Part shown: one piece after another, positions 9,844 to 31,347 of the stretch | How the letters are laid out: every line of letters starts with the position of its first letter | How positions within the stretch are numbered: the stretch's first letter is position 1 | Source: Chloroflexota bacterium | GTDB lineage: Bacteria > Chloroflexota > Dehalococcoidia > Lucifugimonadales > JADFKI01 | Length of the DNA: 64,000 nucleotides | Assembly (NCBI GenBank): GCA_009840355.1 | Contig: VXNZ01000012.1 | Span: 1 to 64,000 of the forward strand | Reading direction: 5' to 3' | Program-made: the position numbers and the translations under genes | Notes under the pieces: model-generated | What the model was told of the DNA's origin: nothing | Databases searched by the model: none | What the model saw: only the letters and a program-made list of their open reading frames with translations

Positions 9844-12216
9844 ATGGCAACGGCAATTCCGGAAATAGCGGATGTATATCAAGACCGCGATACGACACTG
9901 CGGCAAATCCAAGACCGCGTGCTGTGGCTCGCGATAAATATGGTGCATTACGCGAACAACGAGCGCCCGTCGCCGGACGGCAAGGTCGGCGGGCATCAGG
10001 CGTCCAGCGCGTCGGTCACGACGATAATGACATCGTTGTTCTTCGACCACATGCGCGCCGGAGACAGGATTTCGGTCAAGCCGCATGCATCACCCGTCTA
10101 TCACGCCATACAGTATCTGCTGGGCAACCTAGACGGCAGATACTTGAAGACGCTGCGCGGATTTCACGGGCTGCAGGCGTACCCAAGTCAGACCAAAGAC
10201 CCGGACTCTGTGGACTTCTCTACCGGGTCAGTCGGACTAGGACCGGTCGCGCCAAACTTCGCCGCGATTACTGAAGAATACCTGCGCGCGCACCTGCACT
10301 TCTATAATCGATCGCCGCGCCGATACATCAGCCTTGTCGGAGACGCCGAGCTTGACGAAGGGTCCATTTGGGAAGCGATTTCCGAACCGGAAATGGCGGC
10401 GCTCGACAATGTGCTATGGGTCGTTGACTTAAACAGGCAGAGCCTCGACCGCATCATACCGGGTATCCGCGTGCAGAGTTGGCGCGAGATGTTCGCCGCT
10501 AACGGCTGGAATTTCATCGATGTCAAGTACGGCAGACGCCTGCAAAGCGCATTCGCTGAACAGAACGGCGAGCTGCTGCAAATGTGCATCGACGATATGT
10601 CGAACGAGGCATACCAGCGTCTGCTGCGCGTCGATGGCGCCATCCTGCGCGAGTGGCTGCCCCGCTACAGCAGATTCCCACGCGATCTGGCGCGCTTCAT
10701 CAGCCGGTGGAACGACGAAGAGTTTCGCAGCCTGTTCAGCAACCTTGGCGGCCACGACTTCTCCATGCTCAGAGACGCATTCGCGCGCGCGGACGAACTA
10801 CGCGGTCCCACAGTGGTGTTCGCGTACACTTTCAAGGGATTTATGCTGCCGACCATCGGCGACCCACGCAACCACTCGAACCTGCTGTCGCAGACCCAGA
10901 TGGAAGAACTTCGCGAGCACATCGGGTTGGCAGAGAACGAAGTTTGGGACGACTTCGATCCCAGGTCTGCGGCGGGGCTGGCTTGCCGTAGCACAGCCGC
11001 GAGATTGCGCTCGTCAGGGCTGCGCTCGCCGACAGCGTTGACTCCCGCGATTCCCACCAGCATCGACCACGAATATCGCGGCAGCACATCGAGTCAGCAA
11101 GTTTACGGGCTGGTGCTGACCGACCTCGCGCGTAATCTGCCCGAAGTCGCCGACCGCATCGTTACCGTCAGCCCGGATGTGGCGAGCTCAACCGGCTTGG
11201 GCGGCTGGATAAATCGCGCAGGCGTGTGGAATCGTACCGAGCCGGAACAACTGCCCGAAGAAGACGAAAGCGTGCTGCGCTGGAACGAATCATCGCAAGG
11301 GCAGCACATCGAGCTTGGCATATCCGAGAACAATCTGTTCATGATGCTCGGGCAATTGGGGCAGTCGTTCGAGGCGAATGGAGAGCTGCTGTTCCCCATC
11401 GGCACGCTGTACGACCCGTTCGTGCGGCGCGGGCTGGACGCGTTCACTTACGGCCTGTATTCCGACGCGAAGTTCATTGTGGTCGGTACGCCTTCGGGGA
11501 TCACGCTCGCGCCGGAAGGCGGCGCGCATCAGTCGTTTATGACGCCGTCCATCGGCGCAGAAATGCCGGCACTGGACTTCTACGAACCCTGCTTCGGCAA
11601 AGAAGTGGAGTGGATTATGCTGAGCGCGCTCGAACAAGTGAGGCGGCGAGAACGCTCCACATACCTGCGCCTGACGAGCAGGCGCGTTGAGCAGTCGCTA
11701 TTCAACCTGCCGGATGACACGGAGGCGCAAGAGCGTCTGCGGCGGCAGGTGTTGTCGGGCGCGTATCGCCTAGTCAGTCGCGCGTCTGAGCCTCAGTACG
11801 CGCCGGGCGAAAATGTGGTAAACATCATGGCAATCGGGGCGATGATCCCGGATGCGATTGAGGCGAGCGAGGAGTTGCTGCGCGAGGGAGTGTTCGCCAA
11901 TGTCATCAACATCACTGGACCGGGCCCCCTGTACCGGCGCTATCAGGAAGGCATAGACGCTGCGGTTGCGGGCAGCACCACCACGCCGTTCCTAGCGGGC
12001 ATTCTATCGACTGAAGAGCGCCAAGTGCCAGTAGTCGCGGTGGCGGACGCGCACCCGCATTCGCTCGCGTGGATAGGCGGCGCGCTCGGCACGAGGATAA
12101 TGCCGCTAGGAGTAAGCGAATTCGGCCAGTCCGGTACCCGATCCGAGCTATACAAGGAATACGGTATCGATGTTGACAGCATAGTAGCGGCATGCTTCAC
12201 TGCGCTGGACATTTAG
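9844..12216 (+). CDS. AceE-type (homodimeric E1) thiamine-diphosphate 2-oxo acid dehydrogenase
   Basis: 790 residues. The N-terminal GGHQASSAS (about residue 49) and KPHASPVYHAIQ (about 79) match the GGH and H-x-S-P blocks of homodimeric pyruvate dehydrogenase E1. The cofactor motif begins GDAELDEG at 166 and ends at N197, as expected for GD-x(25-30)-N. The second half has the transketolase-like pyrimidine and C-terminal domains (ELGISENNLFMMLGQ, APEGGAHQSF). AceE is usually nearer 880-900 residues, so this is a short form. No E2 or E3 gene is in the window. It may decarboxylate a 2-oxo acid or move a two-carbon unit in the pathway of its neighbours. Its ribosome site, GAGGTTAGCG, is 100 bases after the isomerase gene. 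Confidence 0.8.
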   Translation: MATAIPEIADVYQDRDTTLRQIQDRVLWLAINMVHYANNERPSPDGKVGGHQASSASVTTIMTSLFFDHMRAGDRISVKPHASPVYHAIQYLLGNLDGRYLKTLRGFHGLQAYPSQTKDPDSVDFSTGSVGLGPVAPNFAAITEEYLRAHLHFYNRSPRRYISLVGDAELDEGSIWEAISEPEMAALDNVLWVVDLNRQSLDRIIPGIRVQSWREMFAANGWNFIDVKYGRRLQSAFAEQNGELLQMCIDDMSNEAYQRLLRVDGAILREWLPRYSRFPRDLARFISRWNDEEFRSLFSNLGGHDFSMLRDAFARADELRGPTVVFAYTFKGFMLPTIGDPRNHSNLLSQTQMEELREHIGLAENEVWDDFDPRSAAGLACRSTAARLRSSGLRSPTALTPAIPTSIDHEYRGSTSSQQVYGLVLTDLARNLPEVADRIVTVSPDVASSTGLGGWINRAGVWNRTEPEQLPEEDESVLRWNESSQGQHIELGISENNLFMMLGQLGQSFEANGELLFPIGTLYDPFVRRGLDAFTYGLYSDAKFIVVGTPSGITLAPEGGAHQSFMTPSIGAEMPALDFYEPCFGKEVEWIMLSALEQVRRRERSTYLRLTSRRVEQSLFNLPDDTEAQERLRRQVLSGAYRLVSRASEPQYAPGENVVNIMAIGAMIPDAIEASEELLREGVFANVINITGPGPLYRRYQEGIDAAVAGSTTTPFLAGILSTEERQVPVVAVADAHPHSLAWIGGALGTRIMPLGVSEFGQSGTRSELYKEYGIDVDSIVAACFTALDI

Positions 12217-12286
12217 CATTCACCCAATCTCACACACAGCCAACCACATATAGCCGACATTCATATCCAAAAGGAGACACGAAACG

Positions 12287-12706
12287 ATGACGAAAGTGCT
12301 GGTACTTCACGGGCAGGGCATGGAACTACGCGGCAAGGTTGACATCGAAATCTTCGGCACGATGACGCTGCCCGAGTACGACGAGAACATCCGCCAATAC
12401 GCAGCCGATTTGGGCGTGGATGTGGAGATATTCCACTCGAACGAGGAGTCCGAAGTCATCGCCAAGCTCAAGGATTCGGACGCGGACGCGGCGCTCATCA
12501 ATCCAGGCGGCTACACGACCGGCCATCCCGCACTCGCCGACACGATACGCGAGGGAAGCACACCCACGCTTGAAATTCACATGTCTAACCCGGCAAGCCG
12601 AGGCCGCATATCCGAGATTGGTCCAGCCTGTAGAGGTGTCATCACCGGCATCGGTATCATGGGCTACAACCTAGGCTTGCAAGCGGCAAAAGAACTTTCT
12701 GCATAG
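12287..12706 (+). CDS. Type II 3-dehydroquinate dehydratase (AroQ)-fold protein with altered active site
   Basis: 139 residues, close to the usual 140-150, and alignable with AroQ throughout (HGQGMELRGK, HSNEESEVIAKL, INPGGYTTGHPALAD, LEIHMSNP, GIGIMGY). Compared from memory with M. tuberculosis and B. subtilis AroQ, several catalytic positions differ. Asn of GPN is Gly, the loop Arg (R19) is Val, the loop Tyr (Y24) is Phe (B. subtilis also has Phe), the first His (H81) is Thr, and R112 is Ser. The His of H-x-S-N (H101) and Arg of S-R remain. Ordinary shikimate-pathway activity is therefore doubtful. It is the last gene of the cluster, 70 bases after the E1-like gene, with ribosome site AAGGAGA. 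A related elimination or isomerisation is likely. Confidence 0.8.
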   Translation: MTKVLVLHGQGMELRGKVDIEIFGTMTLPEYDENIRQYAADLGVDVEIFHSNEESEVIAKLKDSDADAALINPGGYTTGHPALADTIREGSTPTLEIHMSNPASRGRISEIGPACRGVITGIGIMGYNLGLQAAKELSA

Positions 12707-12790
12707 TAAAGTCAGCGGCGTCTTTTTTGGCGGGCGCAACAGTCCCTACTCCATATGAGCGAAGGCTAGGATCAAGGCAAAATAGCGATT

Positions 12791-12811
12791 GGCGTCGCCA
12801 TTGGCAACGCC
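12791..12811. promoter_or_regulatory. Near-perfect 21-base DNA palindrome
   Basis: GGCGTCGCCATTGGCAACGCC: 10-base arms around one central base, with one mismatched pair. No T-run follows, so it is not a standard terminator. It lies between the AroQ-fold gene and the tRNA promoter and may be an operator. Confidence 0.3.
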
Positions 12812-12830
12812 ATCTGCAGAATGCCAATCC

Positions 12831-12859
12831 TTGACAGCGCACACCCAGTTCGCTAGTCT
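12831..12859 (+). promoter_or_regulatory. Promoter of the tRNA-Met gene
   Basis: TTGACA (12831-12836), 17 bases, then TAGTCT (12854-12859). The -35 is consensus and the spacing ideal; the -10 is weak. A start near 12866 would give a leader of about 9 bases before the tRNA. Confidence 0.5.
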
Positions 12860-12874
12860 AAATTGACATCAAAC

Positions 12875-12949
12875 GGGCTTGTAGCTCAGCGGCAGAGCGG
12901 TCGGCTCATAACCGATTGGTCCCAGGTTCGATCCCTGGCAAGCCCACCA
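12875..12949 (+). tRNA. tRNA-Met (CAT anticodon), CCA encoded
   Basis: The cloverleaf reads fully. The acceptor is GGGCTTG with CAAGCCC, and the D arm is GCTC/GAGC with a short loop. The anticodon stem is GTCGG/CCGAT (one G-T pair) and the loop CTCATAA carries CAT. The T arm is CCAGG/CCTGG with loop TTCGATC, followed by discriminator A and an encoded CCA. The first pair is G-C, not the mismatch typical of initiator tRNA, so it is elongator Met. A lysidine-modified Ile tRNA read as CAT cannot be ruled out by eye. Confidence 0.93.
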
Positions 12950-26078: not shown

Positions 26079-26537
26079 TTGATTATGACGGCAGCCCCGC
26101 GCAGAGCGTACCAAAGAGCAGGCACGAAACTGGTAACTCTGCTCGATAGCTATGTAGAGGCGCATGACTTGGGTGAAGTCTATGACGCGTCCTTCGATGT
26201 CGTGTTCAGCGATACGGATGTGGTACAGCCTGACTTGCTGTTCGTGTCCAAGGAGCGACTGTACATCAAAAACGACGACAATGTACGCGGTGCGCCCGAC
26301 CTTGTCACCGAAATCCTATCCTCTTCGACGGCAAGCATCGACAGAAACTTCAAGCGCGCGTTATACGCCAAGCACGGCGTCAAAGAGTTCTGGCTCGTAG
26401 ACACCGACGCTAGGAACATAACGGTGATGTTCCTCCGCGAACACGGCTATGAGGTTGTCGGCATCTACGGCGAAGGGCAGACCCTTACATCGCCCACGCT
26501 CGAAGGTTTAATACTCAACATCAGCGAGATTTTCTAG
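26079..26537 (+). CDS. Uma2-family (DUF820-like) PD-(D/E)xK protein, start unclear
   Basis: 152 residues from the TTG at 26079. Uma2 hallmarks are the core V-Q-P-D-L-L-F-V, RGAPDLVTEILSSSTASIDRN (the V-x-E-I-L-S-x-S-T box), KRALYAKHGVKEFWLVD and EGLILNISEIF. The family has a PD-(D/E)xK nuclease fold of unknown role and is common in cyanobacteria and Chloroflexota. The conserved N-terminal part (TYEDRRSTPEDKRYQLLDGEL) is encoded in frame upstream of 26079, open to 25965, but has no ATG, GTG or TTG there; CTG at 25983 is one option. An ATG-started frame from 25961 would join it after a one-base shift near 26010. The gene may be damaged at its start. Confidence 0.75.
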   Translation: MIMTAAPRRAYQRAGTKLVTLLDSYVEAHDLGEVYDASFDVVFSDTDVVQPDLLFVSKERLYIKNDDNVRGAPDLVTEILSSSTASIDRNFKRALYAKHGVKEFWLVDTDARNITVMFLREHGYEVVGIYGEGQTLTSPTLEGLILNISEIF

Positions 26538-30300: not shown

Positions 30301-30309
30301 TGCTATAAT
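30301..30309 (+). promoter_or_regulatory. Extended -10 promoter of the HsdR-N-type gene
   Basis: TGC-TATAAT, a perfect extended -10, with no good -35. A start near 30316 leaves a leader of about 24 bases holding AAAGGAA before the ATG at 30340. Confidence 0.5.
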
Positions 30310-30339: not shown

Positions 30340-31347
30340 ATGCCTCTGGAAAGCCTACTCTCGCTTGTACAAACACTGCGCGAGCGCATCAGCGAACATC
30401 GCAGCACACTCAGCCGAAACGAAATGCTTACGCGGTACGCATTAGTTGACCCATTGCTGCGCGAACTTGGGTGGGACACAGGAGACCCTGCGATAGTCGT
30501 TCCGGAGGATACATCTGGCCAGGGACGTGCCGACTATGTGCTACGAACCAACGGACAGCCCGTAATGGTGGTGGAGGCAAAGAGCTTGGGCAGTGGGTTG
30601 CAGAACGGCGCAAGGCAAGCCGTGGACTACGCGATGGACGCCAACCGCCAAGCGCGCTACTTTGCCATAACCGACGGCCAGAACTGGGTGACTTACGACA
30701 CGAACAGACCTGCCAACGATATGCGCGTATCATCCTTCGACGTCATGTCGGCATCACCTGCCGAGGCGTGCTTGAAGGCTATGGCGCTTTGGCATCCTGC
30801 AGTCGAGCACGACAGCGTAATTGCTGCTGAAACTCCGTTAGTCGGGCTGGACGCCGTAGAGCGGGACGTAGCAGAACCAATTGTTCCGCCTGTACAGGGG
30901 CATGAACCTGCGCTGCAAGAGCAGTCTGCAACTCAGCGACGCTCTGCTGCCAACACGCAGCCAGGCGAAAGAGGTCAAAAATGGATTCCGCTGTCCGCCT
31001 TGAATCCGCAGGGAGGTGACGCTCCACCTGTCGAGATTCAGTTCCCTGACAATAGCAGAGTCGCGCTCGGAAAATGGAATACGGTTGCGATCGAGTCAGT
31101 TCGCTGGCTATTCACAAGTAACTACTTGAACGCCGGTAATTGGCGTATTCAACGTGCTACAAGATATATCGTATCCGATAGTCCGATTCACCCAAATGGA
31201 AAAGAATTCACGATATCCCGTAATGTAGGTCCGTTGCATGTAGAGATAAATTACAGTGGATTGAACCTTGTCAAGAACACGCAGATAATTATCGAGCATG
31301 CAGGCCAAGACCCATCCGAATTCAAAGTCCGCCTCCCACCCCAATAG
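30340..31347 (+). CDS. Stand-alone HsdR-N-type nuclease-fold protein with uncharacterised C-terminal domain
   Basis: 335 residues from the ATG at 30340 (AAAGGAA site); the frame is open further upstream but overlaps the NudC gene. Residues 20-110 resemble the N-terminal nuclease domain of type I restriction HsdR proteins. The PD-(D/E)xK core is D65, then E79 and K81 (RADYVL and VVEAKSLG), with an acidic Glu/Asp pair at 56-57 and a QAVDYA helix near 97. A linker (about 150-210) leads to a C-terminal domain (about 215-335). That part has VEIQFPDNSRVALGKWNTVAIESVRWLF, HPNGKEFTISRNVGPLHVEINYSG and IIEHAGQDPS. No methylase, specificity subunit or helicase is nearby. It could be a defence or repair nuclease, or a degenerate relative. 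Confidence 0.62.
   Translation: MPLESLLSLVQTLRERISEHRSTLSRNEMLTRYALVDPLLRELGWDTGDPAIVVPEDTSGQGRADYVLRTNGQPVMVVEAKSLGSGLQNGARQAVDYAMDANRQARYFAITDGQNWVTYDTNRPANDMRVSSFDVMSASPAEACLKAMALWHPAVEHDSVIAAETPLVGLDAVERDVAEPIVPPVQGHEPALQEQSATQRRSAANTQPGERGQKWIPLSALNPQGGDAPPVEIQFPDNSRVALGKWNTVAIESVRWLFTSNYLNAGNWRIQRATRYIVSDSPIHPNGKEFTISRNVGPLHVEINYSGLNLVKNTQIIIEHAGQDPSEFKVRLPPQ

Follow-up and report, generated by a model that had tools for sequence, protein, structure and literature searches.

We identify in a Chloroflexota bacterium a 335-residue protein in which an HsdR-type PD-(D/E)XK nuclease domain is followed by a flexible linker and by a C-terminal domain (CTD) distantly related to the SeqA DNA-binding domain. 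Both domains are recognized by profile as well as by predicted fold. We think that the protein works alone, as an endonuclease directed to DNA by a SeqA-type reader, with type IV-like (modification-dependent) restriction as its most likely role, a reading for which our confidence stands at about the halfway mark. The HsdR-type nuclease and the layout of a reader fused to a nuclease are already known. In Table 1, we report the features of the gene, in coordinates of the 64,000-nt stretch of DNA that was analysed (the window).

Table 1. The nuclease gene and the features of its protein, in window coordinates.
Feature	Coordinates	Strand	Basis
Complete gene, 335 aa: HSDR_N nuclease, linker and SeqA-C-like domain	30340..31347	+	architecture common to full-length relatives
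Extended -10 promoter element TGCTATAAT	30301..30309	+	exact pattern match, 31 bp before the ATG
HsdR-type PD-(D/E)XK nuclease domain, residues 1-159	30340..30816	+	Pfam PF04313, invariant residues, fold match
Catalytic D65	30532-30534	+	identical in 33/33 rows
Catalytic E79	30574-30576	+	identical in 33/33 rows
Catalytic K81	30580-30582	+	identical in 33/33 rows
Flexible low-confidence linker, residues 160-210, variable in length and sequence	30817..30969	+	pLDDT, identity between homologues
SeqA-C-like domain (CTD), residues 211-335	30970..31344	+	predicted fold, profile links via intermediates
SeqA fold overlap, residues 234-331	31039-31332	+	whole-protein model
NYSG, residues 304-307, aligned with SeqA loop N150-T151-N152	31249..31260	+	profile and joint alignment

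The gene and its nuclease domain

The gene is real. Its frame runs uninterrupted for 335 codons plus the stop, and in an alignment of the window protein with 32 full-length relatives (33 rows) a start codon is found at the aligned position with offset 0 in 28 rows and with offset 1 in 5, a comparison in which the start closest to the expected site was chosen for each row and which is supportive, not independent, evidence. The host genome (3.28 Mb in 57 contigs) has a single copy; the next protein match has an E-value of 0.04, and the CTD profile finds one place. The gene's own extended -10 element, already seen in a sequence-only reading of this DNA, is present and stands without a -35 hexamer partner in a scan for sigma-70 pairs, whose list does not include the site. 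The extended -10 pattern occurs at three sites in the window compared with 0.54 expected, and 3 of 100 shuffles reach three.

The N-terminal part matches the Pfam HSDR_N family with an E-value of 4.7e-11 and 43.4 bits, against a curated cut-off of 25.1. In the predicted model of the whole protein (pLDDT 88.3), residues 1-159 superpose on HsdR (3h1t) with a VIA Z of 13.6, with 117 aligned residues at 2.6 A, and they are also near the nuclease domains of the type IIG enzymes BpuSI (VIA Z 11.9) and DrdV (11.7). Eight residues (E28, T31, R32, E56, D65, E79, K81 and Q93) are identical in all 33 rows. They include the D65 and E79-x-K81 that had been proposed from the sequence as the active site, which is thus invariant among the proteins aligned. 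The dN/dS of the nuclease domain is 0.14 in the comparison with G057 and 0.25 with G059, two usable pairs of three, the pair with G056 being saturated at synonymous sites. The domain is under purifying selection.

The likeness to the HsdR N-terminal domain is one of family (above the Pfam cut-off), of fold and of PD-(D/E)XK residues. The window protein differs from HsdR in having no motor domain within its 335 residues and no HsdM or HsdS, and its SeqA-like domain replaces the translocase. None of the ten window neighbours examined is a methylase, a helicase or a specificity subunit. The sequence-only reading had taken the protein for a stand-alone HsdR-N-type nuclease and not a type I system, and both statements hold. 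In Campylobacter jejuni, a protein with an HsdR N-terminal domain is not the same in a phage-resistant and a phage-sensitive strain, its role there being unclear (PMC8713573). We also observe sister HSDR_N proteins of approximately 375-435 aa (L085, L086, L087, L093, L094, L098 and L099) which have another C-terminal part in common, one that is not SeqA-like by the profiles used.

A C-terminal domain related to SeqA

SeqA of E. coli recognizes freshly copied, half-methylated DNA, and discriminates hemimethylated from fully methylated DNA. It docks on double-stranded DNA in the major groove and is regarded as a replication-control protein. In the window protein, the linker that precedes the CTD has a pLDDT below 50 at residues 167-170, 172-177 and 194-210, and an identity of 5-31% between homologues. 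The CTD folded alone gives a model with pLDDT 97 and pTM 0.90. By sequence, it has no Pfam match and its best E-value against PDB sequences is 0.077; 21 CTDs have no Pfam SeqA match at E <= 1. Against viral fold models, the best E-value is 0.83. A Foldseek search of the PDB with the CTD model has SeqA as its top three matches, with E-values of 0.35-0.94 that are not significant alone. When realigned, the model matches four SeqA entries (1lrr, 3fmt, 3sk7 and 1iu3) with VIA Z of 6.5-6.7, against 2.2 for the next entry, over 92-98 residues at 2.9-3.3 A and with 10-11% identity. The overlap in the whole-protein model has a Z of 6.3-6.5. No other fold rises above the background, and the predicted CTD has the fold of the C-terminal domain of SeqA; where SeqA has its N-terminal oligomerization domain, the window protein has the HSDR_N nuclease.

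A Z below 8 can reflect a common arrangement, and we therefore looked for sequence links between the CTD and SeqA. The direct comparison of their profiles is weak, with a probability of 3.7-6.4%, so that homology rests on intermediates and fold. The CTD family profile, which includes the CTDs found on helicases, matches the CTDs of the HSDR_N proteins L100, L106 and L107 with a probability of 96.4% (P 1.4e-9), and these in turn match the SeqA profile with a probability of 96.8% (P 2.1e-10). Another set (L088, L089, L096, L102 and L103) matches SeqA with a probability of 95.5% (P 1.6e-8). The first comparison of the L100-type CTDs with SeqA had one outlying shuffle in 100, with a score of 134.6; the maximum was 17.4 when it was repeated with 120 shuffles. 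In the repeat of both comparisons, CTD to L100-type and L100-type to SeqA, none of the 120 shuffles came near the real score, and the unrelated nuclease-domain profile used as control gave a probability of 0.2-1.2%. A separate link, that of A2 with the sister set, was dropped on finding that 1 of 100 shuffles scored above the real comparison.

Searches with SeqA models agree on where the likeness is found. When 2961 ORFs from 20 sister HSDR_N loci are searched with a SeqA profile built on seven proteins, the top four matches all fall in HSDR_N C-termini. Two further proteins of this kind, L106 and L107, have E-values of 3.7e-5 and 3.3e-4 in a small search space. Only 4 of the 20 loci gave a match, and the SeqA-like end is not universal among the sisters. 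The Pfam SeqA model has sub-threshold matches (E 0.017-0.047) in four of six sister HSDR_N proteins, and the NCBIfam SeqA model has such matches in two of these six. Over 247 genomes, Pfam SeqA gives 23 matches at E <= 1, none above the cut-off; three fall in HSDR_N C-terminal parts, and we take the other 20 as noise. With the L100 CTD as a single query over 247 genomes, the fourth match is the CTD of a main-family protein in G064 (E 0.011). The host genome itself has no Pfam SeqA (PF03925) match at E <= 1, and the cut-off is not reached there. A sub-threshold Pfam SeqA match in Methanosarcina acetivorans, a control genome, could be a further SeqA-like domain.

The homology of the CTD to the SeqA DNA-binding domain, via these intermediates, is well supported but indirect. 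The two have in common the predicted fold, the stepwise sequence link and an asparagine at the position of N150. They differ in that the window CTD falls below the Pfam cut-off and is fused to a nuclease rather than to the oligomerization domain. The sequence-only reading had described a conserved domain for which it had no family to name, and had suggested predicting its structure. The domain is conserved and does lie outside the named Pfam families; by the predicted structure and the profile intermediates, it now has a relative.

The SeqA residues in contact with GATC are Arg116, Thr117, Arg118, Asn150 and Asn152 (PMC6225831). The SeqA 150-152 loop aligns with N304-Y305-S306 of the window protein, and the 116-118 loop falls near residues 273-275. 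Of these five contacts the window protein retains one, N150 (as N304), and lacks R116-T117-R118 and N152. At position 304, 14 of the 33 rows have asparagine; at 306, serine is found in 16 and asparagine in 9; a K or an R is present at 274 in 15 rows and at 275 in 18. Judged from the alignment, the DNA face of the CTD seems to vary and to be basic, and SeqA's GATC code is not kept. With most of those contacts missing and N304 present in 14 of 33 rows, that the CTD reads methyladenine is something we infer from its family. Of two motifs picked out in the sequence as conserved, F-P-D (235-237) is so, with F in 26, P in 29 and D in 28 of the 33 rows, but NYSG is not, as the counts at 304 and 306 indicate.

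Distribution and genomic context

The window protein has matches at E <= 1e-5 in 64 of 250 genomes of its order, some by one domain only. The CTD is found in 56 of the 250 genomes of the order, some of which have several copies, and in 29 of 400 of the phylum. The same fusion of nuclease and CTD occurs in one Gemmatimonadota and one Binatia genome and, with 30.6% identity over 99%, in Thermomicrobium roseum. The T. roseum gene is on a megaplasmid, directly after ParA- and ParB-type partition genes and on the same strand (L035, NC_011961.1, region 10012-12888). We observe variants of the architecture as well. The closest relative, in the same genus (L003, 531-2060, minus strand), has one nuclease domain and then two tandem SeqA-like domains; just downstream of the Gemmatimonadota homologue, a separate ORF (L032, 3025-3426, plus strand) has a second SeqA-like domain; and a 278 aa protein (L075, 2255-3088, minus strand) has a SeqA-like domain after an N-terminal part without a Pfam match. 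There is no match to the window protein in 50,697 phage records, no match to the L100-type CTD in phages or plasmids, and no confirmed relative of the family, nor SeqA, in a viral contig collection.

Helicases of approximately 750-900 aa, in eight loci (L067-L074) from seven genomes, also end in the CTD, either once or twice. These have the same CTD as the window protein at the C-terminus, but carry a helicase instead of the nuclease and are encoded elsewhere in the genome. The two that we examined are RadD/YejH-like, with E-values of about 1e-38 and 132-136 bits against an NCBIfam RadD cut-off of 720; NCBIfam names RadD a DNA repair helicase. A shorter-frame CTD is present in 5 of the 7 genomes with a CTD helicase and in 49 of the 243 others (Fisher P 0.006, with kinship ignored). 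The neighbours of the CTD helicases are mixed, and the ten examined include one Uma2 nuclease and no methylase. The occurrence of the CTD on both nucleases and RadD-like helicases fits a common DNA-targeting role.

In the window, a NUDIX/NudC gene lies directly upstream of the nuclease gene and divergent from it, and a DHDPS-family gene lies directly downstream. The other neighbours examined are genes for a Tautomerase_3 protein, a thioesterase, a Uma2 protein, an alcohol dehydrogenase, an AMP-binding enzyme, RimM and RelA/SpoT, and a small gene without a Pfam match. The Uma2-family putative nuclease (26079-26537, plus strand; Pfam E 1e-29) is 4 kb upstream of the gene and is a PADLOC candidate (PDC-S03). 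Among the neighbours, PADLOC at E <= 1e-5 matches this gene and, more weakly, the NudC and RelA/SpoT genes (PDC-S07 and PDC-S33), all by broad candidate models. The association with defence regions that a neighbourhood survey might have revealed is not found. At E <= 1e-10, PADLOC matches 2 of the 116 nearest neighbours in 20 family loci; 17 control regions taken in the genomes of these loci have 119 genes, which matched 150 PADLOC models, several of them to the same gene and with type I specificity subunits among them. Without enrichment at the family loci relative to the control regions, we reject membership in a defence island. There is likewise no methylase among the neighbour families of the relatives, in the first 25 of 90 that were listed.

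Within the genus, the gene keeps a fixed chromosomal slot and diverges far faster than its flanks. In three same-genus relatives with the gene, NudC adjoins it as in the window, and in G056 and G059, the two whose contigs extend further, its opposite flank is the DHDPS gene. In G059 one small ORF lies between the nuclease and NudC genes (L118, 10356-10745, minus strand), which by eye we take to resemble an AbrB/MazE-type antitoxin. Within the genus, identity is 81-95% for the AMP-binding, NudC and DHDPS proteins of the flanks, compared with 40-55% for the nuclease protein over its whole length (71, 58 and 53% in the nuclease domain and 57, 39 and 42% in the CTD). The G059 allele falls outside the genus clade (96/91), but a single clade is not rejected by an AU test (p 0.088), and we therefore make no claim that the allele in this slot was replaced horizontally. 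The neighbour of the gene in another family of the order is, repeatedly, an acetyl-CoA synthetase gene.

Proposed function and alternatives

We propose that the SeqA-C-like CTD would dock on double-stranded DNA as SeqA does and pick out a sequence or a base mark, and that the flexible linker would allow the tethered HsdR-type domain to cut nearby, with Mg2+ and through D65, E79 and K81. A type IV-like role is the most likely one for two reasons: the protein lacks a partner methylase, a motor and a specificity subunit, and a fast-diverging allele occupies a fixed slot. The protein has the composition of a type IV enzyme, a nuclease and a reader domain without an adjacent gene for a cognate methylase. 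Solitary type IV enzymes need no partner. For that reason, and since the gene diverges faster than its fixed neighbours, the defence role offered by the sequence-only reading is possible, although the gene neighbourhood does not support it. The cue may be methyladenine, hemimethylation, another mark or bare sequence. The host genome has 16 matches to the PF01555 methylase family, so that a broad methyladenine-dependent cutter would be dangerous to the host.

Two-domain type IV enzymes have been described, amongst them PvuRts1I, which like the window protein has a PD-(D/E)XK nuclease at the N-terminus and a reader at the C-terminus (PMC12707154). Endonucleases with a winged-helix fusion sense methyladenine, and RAMA and YTH are mentioned as further readers (PMC11037411). 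PvuRts1I, MspJI, the DpnI-type winged-helix enzymes and the EVE, YTH and SRA fusions resemble the window protein in being one polypeptide with a separate reader and without a partner methylase; they differ from it in the reader, which in the window protein is SeqA-like. SeqA appears in PMC12707154 as a fluorescent marker and not among the readers of its section 27, part 1, and the word is absent from the main text of PMC11037411. In the open-licence papers searched, we found no nuclease described with a SeqA-like domain.

Ranked second, and in our judgement rather unlikely, is a role in repair or replication, as a DNA-maintenance nuclease whose SeqA-like domain finds hemimethylated fresh DNA or another replication or repair structure, and which nicks or trims it in a MutH-like or repair role. 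The stable chromosomal position beside housekeeping genes and outside defence islands, which counts against the type IV-like reading, is in its favour, as are the presence of the domain on relatives of a repair helicase and the place of the T. roseum homologue after ParA and ParB genes. A maintenance function fits poorly, however, with the patchy distribution in the order and the phylum, the fast divergence and the several copies in some genomes, with the loss of most of the SeqA contacts to GATC, and with a host genome that has no match to the Dam-type family PF02086. Third, and a weaker candidate again, is a type II-like restriction enzyme: its reader would recognize sequence alone, and a methylase from another part of the genome would give protection. 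The nearness of the nuclease domain to BpuSI and DrdV and the N6/N4 methylase matches in the host point in this direction, as does the greater variability of the CTD compared with the nuclease domain, a pattern that a recognition domain should show; against it, no methylase is seen among the window neighbours or the neighbour families listed for the relatives. Finally, it is improbable that the likeness to SeqA is just a common small alpha/beta arrangement, the CTD binding some other thing such as a protein and the nuclease being a type I orphan: the weak direct comparison, the low Z and identity and the CTDs without a Pfam SeqA match would allow it, but SeqA alone rises above the structural background and two HSDR_N subfamilies match it by sequence profile.

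We can also suggest a wider meaning, as a tentative conjecture that is more probably wrong than right. The SeqA DNA-binding domain may be a branch of a broader family of prokaryotic domains that read DNA marks and are carried by HsdR-type nucleases and RadD-like helicases, in which the window protein would read hemimethylated or otherwise modified adenine sites and the helicases would act at the same marks. Fusions of readers and nucleases make up the repertoire of modification-dependent restriction, and enzymes with which DNA marks are mapped come from among them. If the CTD does read modified adenine, it is a type of reader undescribed for restriction enzymes in the literature searched, and the SeqA type would be a new reader class. 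Proteins whose present annotation is hypothetical or HsdR N-terminal domain-containing would gain a named domain, and SeqA would belong to a larger family that in other phyla is carried by nucleases and helicases.
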